The position numbers and the translations under genes were made by a program. Positions 56,767 through 64,000 of a stretch of DNA of 64,000 bases are shown here, one piece after another. The notes under the pieces were generated by a model. The model was given only the letters and a program-made list of their open reading frames with translations, did no database searches and was not told where the DNA came from. The DNA comes from Streptomyces sp. adm13(2018) (GTDB lineage: Bacteria; Actinomycetota; Actinomycetes; Streptomycetales; Streptomycetaceae), in NCBI RefSeq assembly GCF_008042145.1, contig NZ_RDBH01000080.1:33615-97614 (forward strand), in the 5' to 3' direction. Every line of letters begins with the position of its first letter. The stretch's first letter is position 1.

Positions 56767-59574
56767 CTATCGACCGACATCCCGCCCCTTCCGGTCGAGG
56801 GCCAGCCAGACGCGGTCGCGGGTCACCGGAAGCTCGGTGAAGCGGATGCCCGTGGCGTCCCTGAGGGCGTTGGCGAAGGCGGGGGCGACGGGGTTGAAGG
56901 GGCTCTCGCTCATCGACTTGGCGCCGAGCGGGCCGATGGCGTCGGAGGTCTCGGCGAAGTGGACCTCGGTGCGCGGGACGTCCGCGTACTGGGGGAGGCG
57001 GTAGCGGCGGAAGGCGGCGGTGGTGACCTCGCCGCGTTCGTCGATCCGGACGTTCTCGAAGAGGGTCGCGCCGAGGGCCTGGGCGACCCCGCCCTCGACC
57101 TGGCCCCGGCACTGCATGGGGTTCATGACCTTGCCCGCGTCGGCCGCGTGCACACTGCGCAGGATGCGGATCTCCCCCGAGTCGGGGTCGACGGCGATCC
57201 TGAACCACTGCGCGTTGAAGGCCACCGAGCGCGGCGCCCCGCCCCAGTGCCCGTCGGCCCCGAGTTCCTCCGCCGCGCCGAGCGCGTGCGCCGCCTCGTA
57301 CAGCTCCTTGAGGGTGACGGTCCGCCCGGCGCAGTCCACGGACTCGGCGCCGAGCGTGCAGAGGTGCCGGGCGACCCCGCTGTGCCGGGCGGCGAGGGTG
57401 CGCAGCCGTTCGGCGAGGGAGCCGGCGGCGAGGAGGACGGCCTTGCCGGCGACGACGGTGCCGGCGGAGCCGAACGCGCCGGTGTCGTGGCGGACGACGT
57501 CGGTGTCCGACTGGCGGACCGTCAGCCGGTCCTCGGTGGTGTTGAGGGTCCCCGCGGTGATCTGCTTGTGGACGGTGGTGGTGCCGTTGCCGAACTCGGC
57601 CGTGCCGACGGCGATGTCGTACGTGCCGTCCTCCAGCAGCGAGACCCGGGCGTCGGCGTAGTGCCCGCCGGGCGGCCCGGTGGCGATCATCGCCATGCCG
57701 GTGCCCTGCCCGACGAGCCACCCCTCGGGGGCCTCCTCGGCGCTGCGGCCGTCCGCGATCGCGTTCCGGACGACGGAGAGGCACTGGTCGAGCCCGTACG
57801 AGGCGATGAAGAGGTCCTCCTCCTCGCCGATCGGGCTGTGCATGCCCTCTCCGGGACCGATGATGTTCCGCTCCCGGAAGACGAGCGGGTCCATGCCGAG
57901 CCGGCGGGCGAGCTCGTCCATTGCGGACTCGACGGCGAAGGTGACCTGCCCGAGGCCGTAGCCGCGGAAGGCGCCCGCGGGGACGACGTTGGTGTAGACG
58001 GAGTAGGCGTCGACCTTCTTGTGCGGGACGCGGTACACGGCGAAGGACTCGCCGACGCTGTGGAACATCACCGCCGGGCCGTGGTTGCCGTACGCGCCGG
58101 TGTTCGACACCACCCGCATCTGCACGGCGGTGAGGATCCCGTCCGCCCGCGCGCCCACCTTGATGCCGATGGTGAACGGATGCCGGGTGGTCGCCCCGTA
58201 GAACTGCTCGGCCCGCGTGTACTCCAGCTTCACCGGCCGGCGCAGCTTCAGGGCGGCGAGGGTCACGATGTCCTCGGTGAGCATCTCCTGCTTGCCGCCG
58301 AAGCCGCCGCCGACGCGGCCCGCGACCACGCGGACCTCGTCCTCCGGGAGGCCGTACAGCGCGCAGAGCGCCCGCCGGGTCAGGAACGGCGTCTGGGTGG
58401 ACGAGCGGACGGTGAGCCGCTCGCCCGTGCCGGCCCCCTCGCCGTCCTTCGGCTCGAAGTACGCGACGCAGCCGTGCGTCTCCAGGCTGGCGTGCTGGAC
58501 GCGCTGGGTGCGGAAGGTCTCCTCGTACACGACGTCGGCCGCCGCGAAGCCCTCCTCGACGGAGCCGATCTCTCCGTGGACCTCGCCCGCGACGTTGTTC
58601 TCGACCCGGGCGATGCGCGCCTCCGGGCCCTTGCCCGCGTGGATCACGGGCGCGCCGGGGCGCATCGCCTCCTCGGGGTCGGTCACGTACGGCAGTTCCC
58701 CGTACGTGACCTCGATCCGGCGGCAGCCCTCCTCGGCCGCCTGCTCGCTGTCGGCGACGACGGCCGCGACCCGCTGCCCGACGTACCGCACCACGTCGTC
58801 CAGGACCCGGGTGTCGTCGGGGTCCTCCGTGGGGTGCTCGTGCCGGGCGGAGGAGTACAGCGTGGCCGGGGCGTCCTCGTGGGTCAGGACGGCGTGCACG
58901 CCGGGGACCCTGAGCGCGGCCGCCGTGTCGATCGCGAGGATCCGGGCGTGCGGGTGCGGCGAGCGCAGCAGCTTCATGTGCAGCAGGCCCGGCACCTCGA
59001 CGTCGAAGGTGTACCGGGCGGTGCCGGTGACGACCTGCGGACCGGCCGGCGCCGCGACGTTGCGGCCCACCGCCTGCCCGGCGCAGGGCCGTTCGACGTG
59101 CCGGACGCCCCGTACGGCGTCCTCGATCGCGCGGTAGCCGGTGCAGCGGCAGATGTTCCCCTTGAAGGCGCGCGGGAGGTCGTCGAGCTTGCCGTCGTCG
59201 TCCGGGGTGCCGCGCTCGGCCTCCAGGGCGGCCGTGGTCATCAGGAAGCCCGCGGTGCACATGCCGCACTGGTAGCCCTGCGCGTCGAGGAACCGCTGCT
59301 GGACCGGGTGGAGTTCGCCGCCCGGCGCGGCCAGGCCCTCCACCGTGGTGACGGCACGACCCTCCGCCCGCACGGCGGGGTAGAGACAGCTGTGCACGGG
59401 CTCCCCGTCGACGTGCACGGTGCACGCGCCGCAGTCGCCCGCGTCGCAGCCCTTCTTCACGCCGAACCAGCCCCGCTCCCGGAGGTAGGTCCGCAGGCAC
59501 TGGCCGGCGCGCGGCTCGTCCTGGTGGGACCGGCCGTTCACCTGGAGCTGGAATCCTTCGGTCCGCGGGCTCAT
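56767..59574 (-). CDS. xanthine dehydrogenase, fused [2Fe-2S] and molybdopterin subunits
   Basis: Molybdenum hydroxylase of 935 residues, probably oxidising hypoxanthine and xanthine. The N-terminal about 160 residues hold the two iron-sulphur clusters: KKGCDAGDCGACTVHVDG and, after YQCGMC, GNICRCTG. The Moco domain follows, with GRVGGGFGGKQ, AGAFRGYGLGQ, TAEFGNGTTTV and GAKSMSESPFNP, whose Glu should be the catalytic base. No FAD domain is present; that subunit is the adjacent gene, which is truncated. The ATG at 59574 overlaps the FAD gene stop (ATGA) and has AGGAG upstream. The divergent PucR regulator supports a purine-catabolism role. Confidence 0.92.
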   Translation of the reverse strand: MSPRTEGFQLQVNGRSHQDEPRAGQCLRTYLRERGWFGVKKGCDAGDCGACTVHVDGEPVHSCLYPAVRAEGRAVTTVEGLAAPGGELHPVQQRFLDAQGYQCGMCTAGFLMTTAALEAERGTPDDDGKLDDLPRAFKGNICRCTGYRAIEDAVRGVRHVERPCAGQAVGRNVAAPAGPQVVTGTARYTFDVEVPGLLHMKLLRSPHPHARILAIDTAAALRVPGVHAVLTHEDAPATLYSSARHEHPTEDPDDTRVLDDVVRYVGQRVAAVVADSEQAAEEGCRRIEVTYGELPYVTDPEEAMRPGAPVIHAGKGPEARIARVENNVAGEVHGEIGSVEEGFAAADVVYEETFRTQRVQHASLETHGCVAYFEPKDGEGAGTGERLTVRSSTQTPFLTRRALCALYGLPEDEVRVVAGRVGGGFGGKQEMLTEDIVTLAALKLRRPVKLEYTRAEQFYGATTRHPFTIGIKVGARADGILTAVQMRVVSNTGAYGNHGPAVMFHSVGESFAVYRVPHKKVDAYSVYTNVVPAGAFRGYGLGQVTFAVESAMDELARRLGMDPLVFRERNIIGPGEGMHSPIGEEEDLFIASYGLDQCLSVVRNAIADGRSAEEAPEGWLVGQGTGMAMIATGPPGGHYADARVSLLEDGTYDIAVGTAEFGNGTTTVHKQITAGTLNTTEDRLTVRQSDTDVVRHDTGAFGSAGTVVAGKAVLLAAGSLAERLRTLAARHSGVARHLCTLGAESVDCAGRTVTLKELYEAAHALGAAEELGADGHWGGAPRSVAFNAQWFRIAVDPDSGEIRILRSVHAADAGKVMNPMQCRGQVEGGVAQALGATLFENVRIDERGEVTTAAFRRYRLPQYADVPRTEVHFAETSDAIGPLGAKSMSESPFNPVAPAFANALRDATGIRFTELPVTRDRVWLALDRKGRDVGR

Positions 59575-60041
59575 CGGACTCCTTCTTCCGTCGGTGCGGT
59601 GAGTTCACGGCGGACTTCCTCGGCCAGGCGGAGGCCCATGTGCCGTCGCCACTCGGGAAGTCCGTGGATGTCGTCGAACCACGCGTCGGGCCCGACGGCC
59701 TCGTCGACGGCGGCGCGCAGCCGTTCGCGGTCCGGGGGCAGCGGGAACCAGAGCCGGAAGGGCCGTACGGTCGCGGCGCTGACCGTCACCGCCAGCGAGC
59801 CGTCCACCGGGTCCAGGGTCCCGATGACCAGGGCGCCCGACCGGCCGAGCCCGTACAACGACGCCTGACGGAAGGCCGTACGGCATCCCAGGGCGCGGGC
59901 GGGCAGGGTCACGGAGCGCAGCAGCTCGCCGTCCGCGAGGTCCTTCCGGCCCGCTCCGGTGATGAAGTCGACGACCTTCACCTCCCGCCGCCGCCTCCTG
60001 GAGGTTCGACCAAGAGCTGTTCTCCGCTCTCGCTTGGGCAT
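59571..60041 (-). pseudogene. xanthine dehydrogenase FAD subunit, 5' truncated
   Basis: Matches only the C-terminal half of the FAD-binding subunit: VVDFITGAGRKDLADGELLR, then ALGCRTAFRQASLYGLGRS, VSAATVRPFRLWF and HGLPEWRRHMGLRLAEE. The N-terminal half with the FAD-binding AGGTD and GNxxxASPAGD motifs is missing (about 150 residues). The frame opens at ATG 60041 with a basic, unrelated lead inside the PucR promoter region and no ribosome site. The junction with genuine FAD-subunit sequence is near 59980. Electron transfer from the dehydrogenase to NAD would be lost unless another copy exists. Confidence 0.72.
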
Positions 60042-60114
60042 CTACGATGACGTTTCTCGCATCCACCTCGTGAATGTGAGTCCGGGCCCGACCCGTGACC
60101 CCCTAGGAGTACAG

Positions 60115-61653
60115 ATGCACGTCGACCATCTCCTTCGTCTGGACCGCCTCGACCTGACCCTCGTATGGGCCGACGAGGCGCTGCTCGGCCAGGAGATCAG
60201 CGGCGTCACGGCGACCGACCTGGAGGACCCGGCGCGCTTCCTCCAGCCGGGAGAGGTCGTCCTCAGCGGCCTCGTGTGGTGGAGCCCGGACGGCGAGCCG
60301 GGCAAGACCGGCCGTTTCGTCTCCGCGCTGCGCGAGACCGGCGCGGTGGCGCTGCTCGCCGGGGAGGAGACCCACGGGGAGGTGCCGCGGGAGCTCGTCG
60401 AGGCCTGCCGGCTCCACCGCGTCCCGCTCATCGCCGTCCCGGCGCACACCACCTTCCGGGCGATCACCGAAGCGGTCTACCTGCGGCAGTGGGGCGAGCT
60501 CAGCCGCCGGCCCACCGACCACTTCGCCCTGCCGGAGAACGTACGCCTCGACCTCGACCGCGCCCTGGAGAACGGCGTCTCGATGGGCGAGCTGCTCGAC
60601 CGGGCCTTCGCGCACCTCGGGACCCCCGTCTGCCACCTGCTGACCAGCAGCGGCCGCACCGTCGCCCGCACGGGCGCCGCCCCGGCGCCGCTGCCCGCCG
60701 GGCTCGCCGCGGAACTCCTCCGCGGCGGCCACGGGACGACGGTCCGCGTCGAGAGCGAGGGCGCCACGGCCTACGACACCTGGCACCTGCACCTCCCGGA
60801 GGCGGGCCAGGTGCCCCCGCGGGTCCTCCAGGAGATAGCCGAACTCCTCGGCCGGCACCGCCGCCGGCAGGACCGGATGCGGGCCATGAGCGGCGTGGCC
60901 TCCGAAGAGCTCGTGGACGCGGTGGGCGCCCTGCGCCTCGACGGCCATCGCGTGCAGAGCCTGCTGGCCGCGTGCGGACTCGGCGGCCGCAGCGCGTACA
61001 CCGTGGTCGTCGCCTCCTCGGAACCGGCCGCGGAAGGCGGCGCCGACGGCGTCGCCGCGCTCACCGAGGCCCTGCACCACCTGCCGTCCGCCGCCGCTGT
61101 CGCCGCGGGCCACGACGGCGAGGCGATCGCCGTCGTGGCGCTGGAGGGGGAGACCGCGACCGGCCTGCGGGCACGGCTGGCCGAGGTGTGGCCGCTGATC
61201 CACGCCTGCGGCCCCGGCCGCGCCCCGCACGCCGGGGTGAGCACCTCCGCGAGCGGGCCCTCGGAGCTGCACACCGCCCTGGAGCAGGCGCGCTACGCCC
61301 TGGCGGCCGCCCGCGCCGCGGCACCCGACGCGCCCCGCGTCGCGGCGCTCGCGGATCTCGACGGACTGGGCGGGCTGCTGGCCGGGATCCCCCTCGACGT
61401 GCGCGACGTGTTCCGGACGACGGTCCTGGGGCCGCTCCTCGGCGGCGCCGGCCGGGGGTCGACGGCGATGCTCCTGGACACCCTGGAGGTGTTCCTCGCG
61501 CACGACTGCTCCTGGGCGAGGACCGCCGAAGCGCTCCACATCCACGTGAACACGGTCCACTACCGCGTCGAACGCATCGAGGCCCTCACCGGCCGGGACC
61601 TGTCCCGCCTCGACCACAAGGCGGACCTGCGCGCCGCGCTCCTGTGCCACTGA
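60115..61653 (+). CDS. PucR-family transcriptional regulator
   Basis: Regulator of 512 residues. The N-terminal PucR domain (about 1-125) has GVTATDLEDPARFLQPGEVV and an EACRLHRVPLIAVPAHTTF strand. The middle is a GGDEF-like degenerate domain, and the C-terminal HTH_30 reads SWARTAEALHIHVNTVHYRV followed by ERIEALTGRDLS. PucR proteins activate or repress purine degradation genes in response to purine metabolites. It is divergent from the xanthine dehydrogenase genes and is the likely regulator. The ATG at 60115 follows TAGGAG. The promoter space is short because the deletion brought the FAD fragment close. Confidence 0.9.
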   Translation: MHVDHLLRLDRLDLTLVWADEALLGQEISGVTATDLEDPARFLQPGEVVLSGLVWWSPDGEPGKTGRFVSALRETGAVALLAGEETHGEVPRELVEACRLHRVPLIAVPAHTTFRAITEAVYLRQWGELSRRPTDHFALPENVRLDLDRALENGVSMGELLDRAFAHLGTPVCHLLTSSGRTVARTGAAPAPLPAGLAAELLRGGHGTTVRVESEGATAYDTWHLHLPEAGQVPPRVLQEIAELLGRHRRRQDRMRAMSGVASEELVDAVGALRLDGHRVQSLLAACGLGGRSAYTVVVASSEPAAEGGADGVAALTEALHHLPSAAAVAAGHDGEAIAVVALEGETATGLRARLAEVWPLIHACGPGRAPHAGVSTSASGPSELHTALEQARYALAAARAAAPDAPRVAALADLDGLGGLLAGIPLDVRDVFRTTVLGPLLGGAGRGSTAMLLDTLEVFLAHDCSWARTAEALHIHVNTVHYRVERIEALTGRDLSRLDHKADLRAALLCH

Positions 61654-61737: not shown

Positions 61738-61774
61738 CGGGCCCGGCCGGTGGCGGAACCACCGGCCGGGCCCG
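61738..61774. terminator. bidirectional hairpin terminator
   Basis: Perfect 16-bp stem (CGGGCCCGGCCGGTGG and its complement) with loop CGGAA, between the pucR stop (61653) and the end of the lanthipeptide precursor (61791). It serves both convergent units. Confidence 0.82.
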
Positions 61775-61790
61775 CCCGGACACGGGCTCG

Positions 61791-61904
61791 CTACATCGGC
61801 TCGGGGAAGATGTCGCTGATGCTCCAGGCGACGCTGAAGCAGGGCGGGAGGGAGTAGGCCTCCGGCTCGGTCTCCAGGGACTGCAGCGCGAGGATCTCGC
61901 TCAT
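61791..61904 (-). CDS. class III lanthipeptide precursor (LanA)
   Basis: 37-residue peptide beginning MSEILALQSLETEPEAYSLP and ending with SDIFPEPM. The leader carries the class III recognition signature ILxLQxLE, which LanKC enzymes bind. The core region after about residue 11 has one Cys (22) and Ser 18, 24, 28 and 30. The Cys follows only Ser18, so the usual Ser-x2-Ser-x(2-5)-Cys labionin pattern is not available; a Ser18-Cys22 lanthionine is possible. GGAGAG lies 7 nt before the ATG at 61904. It is 106 bp downstream of the LanKC gene, same strand, and followed by a strong terminator. The identification rests on leader motif plus synthetase context. Confidence 0.82.
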   Translation of the reverse strand: MSEILALQSLETEPEAYSLPPCFSVAWSISDIFPEPM

Positions 61905-62010
61905 GGGTGCTCTCCGGTTCTCTCATCGGGGTGGTGCCGTTCGGTCACTGCCTGCCGGGGCACGGAGGCTCGCTCCCTGCCCGGGCGCTCTGGGGAGGCC
62001 GCCGGTGCCG

Positions 62011-64000
62011 TCATCCGACCGACGGCATCCGGGGCCGCGCGTGCTGCCGCTCCGTCAGGAGGGGTCCGGACAGCAGGCGGTGGAGTACCAGCAGGACTCC
62101 GGCGCCACCGCCCGACAGATCGGCGGTGAACCGCTGGGCGCCCGCGCCGAGGAAGCGGACACCGCGCCCGTGGGGGACGGCGTACTTCAGCAGACCGGTC
62201 GCGGCCCGCACGGCGTCCCTCCTGGCGTCGTCCGTGCCGGTGCGCTCGGCGTGCTCGGTGAGGGCCCAGGTCAGCCCGGCGAGGCCCCGGTACAGTCCCG
62301 CCTCCTTCACGGCGCGGGAGACCCGGATCCCGGCGACCAGCCGGGGCAGCGCCGCGGCGCAGCGCTCGTCCGGCGCGGTCGCCGCGTAGCGCGTGAGTAC
62401 CGCCACGACGCCGGCCGCGCCCGTGGCCAGATACGGCATGGCCCGGGTGAGGCGCGCGTCGTCGGAGAGGGACAGCGAGCCGTCGTCCAGGGGGAAGGTC
62501 CGCTCCAGCTCCTGGTGGAGCAGCACGAGGCCCGCCTCCCGGTAGCGGGGCTCCCCGGTCTCCCCGGCCAGCCGGTCGAGGAAGAGGGCGAGCCCCGTGC
62601 GGCCGTGCAGCAGCCCGCGGGCGTCGTGCGCGCCCAGGGCCGTCGGCAGGTCGGGCGTGCGCAGCAGCCGGTCTCCCGCGGTGGCGGCCCGCTCCAGATG
62701 GCGGCCCTCCCGCGTCGTCCGGTACAGGGCCAGCCAGCCCAGGCCGACGCCGGCCCGCCCGCCGGCCAGGGTCGCGCAGGAGGCGGTGAGCGGGTGGTCG
62801 TCGGCCGCCCGGAGCAGCTCGGCGGCCTCGTCCGGCAGGCCGAGGGCGGCCAGGACGCGGGCGATGCCGGCCGTGCCGACGAGCAGTCCGGGGGGCAGCG
62901 CGTCGCGCTGGGCAAGGGTGTCGCGACGCAGCCGTGCGCGGATCTCCCCGGGCACGGGGTGCCCGGCGCGGTGCAGGGCGTGCACCACTCCCGCGGTGCC
63001 GTAGGCCAGGCACACGTTGTTGGTGCGGAACGCCTCGGGCGGGGCCGGGAAGGCCCACTCGGGCCGGGCGGCGTCGGCCGACGCCAGCAGCCCCGCGGCC
63101 ACCTCCCCGGCCAGCCGGGCGAGTCGGCCGCGCGGATCGGTGCCGGGCTCGGCGGGGGAGGCCGGGCGGTCCTGGCCGGCCTGCTCCGGCAGGTTCCCCG
63201 CGGTGGGGTGGTAGGCGGTGGCCCGCTGCCACAGGTCGTGCGGGGGCGCGACGTCCGCCAGGTCGCGGCGGAGCAGGGCGAGGTTGGCGGGCGCGCGTTC
63301 GGCGACCTCGTGGAACGGCGCCAGGAAGGCCATCGTCACGGCCGACATGCCGTAACGGTCCGGCAGCAGGGGGTCGGTGTCCGCCCGCAGCAGACCGGGC
63401 GGCGGCGCGAACCCCGGTGTGCCGATCCCGGAAGGGGGCTCCGTCAGGGCGGAGGCGGTCTCGAAGTCGACCAGCCGGACCTCGCCCGAGGGCGTGATCA
63501 TGACGTTGCCCAGGCTGAGGTCGCCGAACCGGAAGCCGGCCGCGTGCAGCCGCTCCAGCGAGGCGTCGAGTGCCGCCAGCAGCCGCCGGCACTCCGCGTA
63601 GTACGCGGCGACGGAGTCGCCCGTCCGGTCGGCGCGGGCGAGCGGGGAGTTCCGGCTCAGCCAGCTCACCAGCGGCTGTCCGGCGATGTGCTCGGTGACG
63701 AGGAAGTCGTGCTCCCACTCCGTGAAGTGCTCCAGCGGCTCCGGGCCCACCCCGGGGGCGGCCGCGTGCAGGGCGCGCAGCACGCGGTCCTCGTGCCGCA
63801 GCCGCCGCTGCGCGTCGGTCCCGTCGAAGACCAGCCCGTTGTGGGCGCGGGCCTCCTTGAGGAAGACGGTGCGCCCGGTCCTCCGGTCCCTGGCCTCGTA
63901 CGTGCCGCCGGAGTTGCCCAGCCGCACCGCGCGGCTCACCTCGTACGCGCGGATCAGGATCGGCCCCGTGTGCGGCTCCTCCTCCTTCTCGACGAACGGG
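62011..64000 (-). CDS. class III lanthipeptide synthetase LanKC (partial)
   Basis: C-terminal about 663 residues of a LanKC; the gene continues beyond the right edge. Visible are the kinase domain (GNSGGTYEARDRRTGRTVFL, catalytic-loop GFRFGDLSLGNVMIT with the Asp, and VRLVDFETAS) and the cyclase domain (NNVCLAYGTAGVVHALHRAG, GLLVGTAGIARVLAALG, GLLHGRTGLALFL, DLSGGGAGVLLVLHRLL). The zinc ligands (Cys, Cys-His-Gly) of class I/II/IV cyclases are absent, which marks class III. The N-terminal lyase domain should lie past 64000. It phosphorylates and dehydrates Ser/Thr of the precursor and cyclises onto Cys. The frame is open through 64000. Confidence 0.9.
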   Translation of the reverse strand, partial: PFVEKEEEPHTGPILIRAYEVSRAVRLGNSGGTYEARDRRTGRTVFLKEARAHNGLVFDGTDAQRRLRHEDRVLRALHAAAPGVGPEPLEHFTEWEHDFLVTEHIAGQPLVSWLSRNSPLARADRTGDSVAAYYAECRRLLAALDASLERLHAAGFRFGDLSLGNVMITPSGEVRLVDFETASALTEPPSGIGTPGFAPPPGLLRADTDPLLPDRYGMSAVTMAFLAPFHEVAERAPANLALLRRDLADVAPPHDLWQRATAYHPTAGNLPEQAGQDRPASPAEPGTDPRGRLARLAGEVAAGLLASADAARPEWAFPAPPEAFRTNNVCLAYGTAGVVHALHRAGHPVPGEIRARLRRDTLAQRDALPPGLLVGTAGIARVLAALGLPDEAAELLRAADDHPLTASCATLAGGRAGVGLGWLALYRTTREGRHLERAATAGDRLLRTPDLPTALGAHDARGLLHGRTGLALFLDRLAGETGEPRYREAGLVLLHQELERTFPLDDGSLSLSDDARLTRAMPYLATGAAGVVAVLTRYAATAPDERCAAALPRLVAGIRVSRAVKEAGLYRGLAGLTWALTEHAERTGTDDARRDAVRAATGLLKYAVPHGRGVRFLGAGAQRFTADLSGGGAGVLLVLHRLLSGPLLTERQHARPRMPSVG

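Follow-up and report, generated by a model that had tools for sequence, protein, structure and literature searches.

Introduction

The described systems closest to the unit analysed here are the class III lanthipeptides SapB, AmfS and labyrinthopeptin, with which it has in common a LanKC synthetase (lyase, kinase and metal-free cyclase), an LQ motif in the leader and the use of one Cys and two Ser as the cross-linking unit. The established class III chemistry, as set out in the accessible text of PMC10604976, proceeds by phosphorylation, elimination and Michael addition, with labionin arising from a second addition by the enolate. The present family bears on how the metal-free cyclase of this class picks its dehydroalanine (Dha), and on whether the direction of ring closure is set by the enzyme or by the substrate. 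In contrast to SapB, AmfS and labyrinthopeptin, the triad described here is Cys-first, C-x-S-x3-S instead of S-x2-S-x2-5-C, in a peptide with one Cys and with no transporter seen beside its unit.

Ring closure in both directions has been described for the class II synthetases ProcM and SyncM (accessible part of PMC9872173), which accept a Cys N-terminal to the dehydrated residue, as is proposed here; these enzymes are class II and promiscuous, whereas the LanKCs here form a class III clade of their own, dedicated to substrates with one fixed motif. For class III, the available portion of PMC11251773 (2024) reports a Streptomyces "subfamily C" of six single-Cys peptides, four of them with CxSxxS, and considers these possible substrates for a reverse labionin; their clusters also contain a LanM and a Cys-less peptide. 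In the literature searched, mostly non-subscription papers, the term "reverse labionin" occurred in PMC11251773 only, no demonstration of a reverse ring in a class III peptide was found, and there was nothing relevant on the sequence or spacing motif of the present peptide. Here we describe a natural clade with reversed order and fixed spacing, together with a second lineage whose spacing is one residue shorter and a normal-order relative (L059) at 42% identity.

Results

The window, a 64,000-nucleotide stretch that is part of G000:C326 in a 7.9-Mb Streptomyces genome, contains the following features at its right-hand end:

61791..61904, minus strand: precursor peptide gene, 37 amino acids, ATG start (open reading frame, homologues and pN/pS by region)
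61910..61915, minus strand: probable ribosome-binding site GGAGAG ahead of the precursor ATG (by reading; ggaGa kept in 80% or more of the rows when the spacers of 19 loci are aligned)
61739..61773, minus strand: 15-bp perfect inverted repeat with a 5-nt loop, directly past the precursor stop (GgtgG..CacCgG region largely conserved in 19 loci)
62011..64000, minus strand: C-terminal part of LanKC, a class III synthetase (the gene extends to about 64611, outside the window, with a GTG start)

The precursor reading frame (61904-61791, minus strand) translates as MSEILALQSLETEPEAYSLPPCFSVAWSISDIFPEPM. It consists of a leader of about residues 1-15, which contains Ser2, Ser9 and Thr12, a variable linker (16-20) and a conserved core (21-37), P-C22-F-S24-V-A-W-S28-I-S-D-I-F-P-E-P-M. 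The leader motif reads ILALQSLE, in agreement with the canonical class III leader of the original prediction, and the atypical one-cysteine core proposed there is borne out: Cys22 is the sole Cys, with Ser18 before it and Ser24, Ser28 and Ser30 after it. The core contains no labionin pattern S-x2-S-x2-5-C, and its C-x-S-x3-S spacing does not match the C-x-S-x2-S of published subfamily C. An [IL]xLQ leader motif and a gene adjoining LanKC identify the peptide as a class III precursor; it scores below the cut-offs of the NCBIfam lanthi_III models (14.4 of 27 and 12.7 of 22 bits).

No other short reading frame with a class III-like leader was found on either strand of the 19,001 bases around the precursor, including any better canonical precursor beyond position 64000, which by the original prediction would have counted against it. 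Transporters and proteases were absent from the seven non-LanKC neighbour proteins of this stretch that were submitted to Pfam, as had been noted earlier for the window itself; the assignments were a PucR-type regulator, a DUF4232 protein, a STAS protein, a methyltransferase, an MmyB-like regulator, a flavodoxin-fold protein and a glyoxalase. A molybdenum hydroxylase (xanthine dehydrogenase-like) gene and the PucR-type regulator adjoin the lanthipeptide unit (window 56767-61653), the regulator being without counterpart at the other loci of the 17-locus comparison described below. Because the hairpin past the precursor (19 loci) is conserved, as is the start region of LanKC (GAGGAG..GTG; aligned in 18 of these loci, L029 being too near a contig end), the transcription unit most likely consists of LanKC (about 2.6 kb) and precursor (about 0.1 kb), with the inverted repeat, which has no T-run, as its probable terminator.

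Extension of the contig, as originally suggested, revealed an intact LanKC reaching to about 64611 (L006:2629-5226; 866 codons excluding the stop, GTG start). Searches with the protein lacking its first 6 residues (P0001) identified NCBIfam class III LanKC NF038151 (734 bits against a cut-off of 575) and the Pfam domains RamC_N, Pkinase and LANC_like, i.e., lyase, kinase and LanC-like domains as expected of a LanKC. The AlphaFold2 model (46-row alignment) gave a pLDDT of 90.2 and a pTM of 0.89, and its best Foldseek match was ThurKC (8sam_A; E 1.5e-43, TM 0.78). The three-domain fold is shared with ThurKC (8sam, 8sao, 8sap), SalKC (9ugq) and PneKC (8wgo), at about 23% identity. According to our reading of the alignment, the equivalents of the ThurKC lyase residues K65, H67, K94, K108, K117, D152, R163 and R191 are kept in all 60 LanKCs aligned, as are the kinase residues D364, N369 and D382; roles of these residues in ThurKC are given in the accessible part of PMC10604976.

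Homologues of the 37-residue peptide occur in 17 of 392 genus genomes, the window's own included. An eighteenth match (G370/L023) was discarded as spurious, since the surrounding 20 kb contain neither this reading frame nor a LanKC match. The family draw gave 13 of 249, after removal of G567 and G573, whose Cys-less peptides lie beside another LanKC, and the class draw 3 of 345, all in the same genus; the genus and family draws overlap in genomes, among them that of the window. A LanKC search with an alignment of 15 orthologues returned at least 79 named loci. Among the loci listed, identity to the window LanKC is 58-82% for L042-L057, 47% for L062 and 30-43% for the others.

Scanning L006-L062 and L121-L139 for peptides with an M..[ILV]LALQ.[LV] leader, a requirement by which precursors with other leaders would be missed, yielded 47 distinct sequences. 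C-x-S-x3-S is present in 43 of 43 distinct precursors of this ILALQ-leader type that adjoin a related LanKC (the window's own or 57-82% identical to it for 42, and 47% for L062), from Streptomyces, Kitasatospora, Streptacidiphilus, Actinospica and one Micromonosporaceae bin. These are homologous short reading frames beside LanKC genes, a search for which had been suggested originally; they also put the adjective "atypical" in perspective, since the core differs from known class III cores and yet follows the rule of its whole LanKC clade. The remaining four peptides are Cys-less and lie beside a different LanKC (36-37% identical). They are found at L131:1266-1680 and L134:1501-1644; each has an SH pair and three have a further His. 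They could represent class III peptides in which His is used, along the lines of the His-to-butyrine idea associated with PMC10206099.

Relative to the Cys, positions 0, +2 and +6 are each invariant (43/43), and no other position from -6 to +11 is. Pro precedes the Cys in 38 of the 43 precursors and Phe follows it in 37. Beyond the close group the motif takes forms such as CFSIYAS, CLSIFAS, CISSGWS, CFSVSGS, CPSAYSS and CFSNWAS, and in two precursors the motif Ser are the only Ser or Thr C-terminal to the Cys. The position of Ser30 is Gly or Thr in some relatives. The acidic, Pro-rich C-terminus, correctly described in the original prediction, is conserved only in the close Streptomyces group, where it reads DIFPEPM or a near variant, and the tails of the wider family differ. 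A second Cys occurs in 6 of the 43 (three share CSLPPC, with the Cys just before the linker Ser; the other three differ), and 3 of the 43 also fit, ahead of the Cys, the loose pattern [ST]xx[ST]x2-5C. As a yardstick, shuffling gave the motif in a mean of 1.1 and a maximum of 7 of 31 cores, the peptides having been preselected for it. Among 18 distinct Streptomyces sequences of 37 residues (3 of the 21 close Streptomyces precursors were omitted for unequal length), pN/pS was 0.605 for the leader, 1.05 for linker residues 16-20, which include Ser18, and 0.19 for the core. Judged from these alignments, the triad is under constraint, which does not in itself imply a bond topology.

We then placed 60 of 96 LanKCs in a quick tree, leaving out L039 (frames broken), L047 (contig end), L096 (1576-residue frame), the duplicates L042, L044, L049, L050 and L052 and, for size, 28 outgroup LanKCs. 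The 26 LanKCs that each have a C-x-S-x3-S precursor form one group (SH-aLRT 99). Outside this clade, L062, which has the same motif, and L058-L061 join the 26 in a group of 31 (SH-aLRT 100). The LanKCs of L059-L061 are close relatives of the 26-row clade (42-43% identity); the L059 precursor is of the S-x2-S-x3-C type and those of L060 and L061 have two Cys, and a scan of the L058 locus found no precursor. Because the precursors of L059-L061 are labionin-like or two-Cys, the change in direction would be recent or reversible.

None of the three zinc-ligand positions of the cyclase carries a ligand in the window LanKC, where 732/774/775 read A/Y/R. Across the 26 clade rows, position 732 is A or S and position 774 is Y, S or, in 2 rows, H; neither Cys nor His is among the residues printed for position 775. 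In the cyclase stretches inspected, all 26 clade LanKCs have R665, R671 and R819. The outgroup mostly has Ala at position 819 (25 of 29 rows) and Pro at position 821 (27 of 29), the latter being Leu in the clade (25 of 26 rows). Such clade-specific residues may have a role in ring direction or may be a mere mark of descent. By the same alignment reading, ThurKC Asp771, considered together with the zinc site as a possible determinant of ring direction, corresponds to Arg775 in the window LanKC and Arg610 to Ala616; the outgroup LanKCs do not commonly carry Asp at the Asp771 position either.

At the 17 loci compared (up to 10 kb per side; L006, L029 and L038 each have one shorter flank), LanKC is the shared neighbour of the precursor and other gene groups recur in at most 4; the LanKCs of L032 and L039, missed or broken by the simple gene caller, were recovered by tblastn. 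Precursor placement also varies: L048, L050 and L053, which are more distant members, have a precursor on both sides of LanKC, L062 has it upstream, and L129, L130 and L132 have two or three in tandem. The variable neighbours had raised the idea of a mobile cassette. Because a single 23-row part of the rpoB tree (SH-aLRT 91; 59 genomes with hand-picked non-carriers, G001 excluded for a partial rpoB) contains all carriers but one (16 of 17), descent within a clade amid changing surroundings fits better. The sole carrier elsewhere on this tree is G183. This genome has two LanKCs within 8 kb (L041:2601-5144 and L041:7327-9942) separated by a gene that looks like a regulator, by eye of the SARP kind; the contig also encodes, at a distance of about 12 kb, a CLSNISS peptide that fits both C-x-S-x2-S and C-x-S-x3-S.

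A reversed triad was also found on LanKCs that adjoin class II genes. At all ten loci L230-L239, the examined share of 24 genomes with a weaker LanM-peptide match, a LanM peptide of the ..DLPWTTMTAPW type accompanies a LanKC 34-36.5% identical to that of the window. A strict scan detected a C-x-S-x2-S precursor in five of the ten loci, and the precursor search matches all ten genomes. This precursor family (..HSVLDLQ..GNCVSTVS..) is present in 19 of 392 genomes once G183 (E 2e-5) is excluded, and all 19 have the LanM peptide; its 20 distinct peptides, one of them from the weak G183 match, all have C-x-S-x2-S and one Cys. The LanKCs of L076 and L109 are of this kind; L109 groups with L076, and both branch elsewhere on the LanKC tree.

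Subfamily C, as it appears in the accessible text of PMC11251773, resembles the window family in its single Cys before two Ser, its class III LanKC and its Streptomyces hosts, but its spacing is one residue shorter. We initially thought it likely that the two were the same, with LanM lying beside LanKC in G199 and G309, and later rejected this. The LanM-linked clusters carry another peptide (..HSVLDLQET..GNCVSTVSLVLG) that fits CxSxxS exactly, with a LanKC only 34-36.5% identical to that of the window, near a LanM and a Cys-less peptide. By motif and cluster content, the HSVLDLQ-type family is most likely the published subfamily C, and the window family most likely a second, distinct reversed-triad family. 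As far as sequences can tell, reversed triads are present on two LanKC lineages with different spacing.

The window genome also encodes a LanM (L003:1-2898, plus strand, G000:C290; PF13575 and LANC_like), followed by a 66-residue peptide (L003:3079-3276, plus strand) that ends in ASWDMPYTTGTITVS, lacks Cys and carries a conserved DMPYTTGTITVS-like tail; a few close relatives of this peptide (L144, L146, L148) do contain Cys. A LanM orthologue stands divergent beside the window-type LanKC in G199 (L035) and G309 (L038). Relatives of the LanM peptide occur in 36 of 392 genomes, comprising 10 window-type carriers, 19 C-x-S-x2-S genomes and 7 with neither. Close relatives are found in 12 genomes, 10 of them carriers (Fisher p 6e-14 over 392 genomes, kinship ignored). 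An obligate pairing of LanM with the window-type LanKC was nevertheless rejected and kept as a lead, as the signal is not significant once kinship is considered: the rpoB tree offers 5 independent pairs (1.8 agree, 0.0 oppose, 3.2 no difference), too few to reach 0.05.

Discussion

We consider it likely that the window family forms a cross-link in the reverse direction, with a reverse lanthionine or a "reverse labionin" as the candidate bond; ring direction, bond type and order of steps are what we infer from the sequences. In the proposed scheme, the leader helix ILALQ would bind LanKC, the kinase domain would phosphorylate Ser24 and Ser28, and the lyase would strip the phosphate to leave two Dha. 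In the metal-free cyclase, Cys22 would then add C-terminally onto Dha28 or Dha24. The product could be a reverse lanthionine with one remaining Dha, SapB-like but backwards, or the enolate could attack the second Dha to give a reverse labionin, which, if true, would be a new cross-linked amino acid arrangement. Ser30 would undergo at most an optional extra dehydration. The C-x-S-x3-S spacing is no mirror image of the labionin S-x2-S-x3-C.

Of the three outcomes originally offered, we thus favour the ring closed in reverse over a simple lanthionine from Ser18, a residue that is not conserved. It seems unlikely that Cys22 adds onto Dha18 in an ordinary N-to-C lanthionine (S-x3-C), with Ser24, Ser28 and Ser30 as Dha or unmodified: the position four residues before the Cys holds Ser or Thr in 15 of the 43 precursors (Ser in 13, the window peptide included) but neither in the other 28, and the linker around Ser18 has a pN/pS of about 1. 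That Ser18 lies at a usable distance in the window peptide, and that Ser before Cys is the usual class III order (accessible part of PMC7268733), would still leave the invariance of Ser at +2 and +6 unexplained. We regard as very improbable a decayed or silent unit with the core as a relic. A dedicated transporter or protease was not seen among the neighbour proteins scanned, and the LanKC of G224 is split over frames in an assembly that is 88% complete, which would agree with decay; however, the core pN/pS is 0.19, all 11 catalytic residues tested are kept, the start region and downstream hairpin are conserved, and a protease is usually missing from actinobacterial class III clusters according to the available part of PMC7268733.

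A further alternative, in our estimate quite improbable, is that Ser24 and Ser28 become Dha and Cys22 stays free for a disulfide or an intermolecular thioether with another molecule. The Cys-poor peptide of the class II LanM found in many of the same genomes is a possible partner: its relatives occur in 10 of 17 window-type and 19 of 19 C-x-S-x2-S genomes, the LanM lies within 1.5 kb of the partner peptide in 29 of 30 loci fetched, and LanM adjoins the window-type LanKC in G199 and G309. In the remaining eight of these ten window-type genomes, however, the partner peptide is on another contig or at least 71 kb away, and one of these (G041) has no LanM in the 19 kb around it. Seven of the 17 carrier genomes have no partner peptide, the joint presence is not significant on the rpoB tree, with too few pairs to reach 0.05, and a free Cys next to Dha would tend toward intrapeptide reaction. 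It is also conceivable, though doubtful, that both LanKC lineages make reverse labionin and that the product pairs, in a two-peptide system, with a Cys-poor dehydrated peptide from a class II LanM that is often not linked.

Two precursors beside distant LanKCs, L077:8553-8648 (AWPCFSYITTFDCP) and L105:5671-5766 (SNCVSWTSSNTAF), are possible intermediates, as they match labionin-like patterns as well as reversed ones once Thr or a shorter spacing is admitted.
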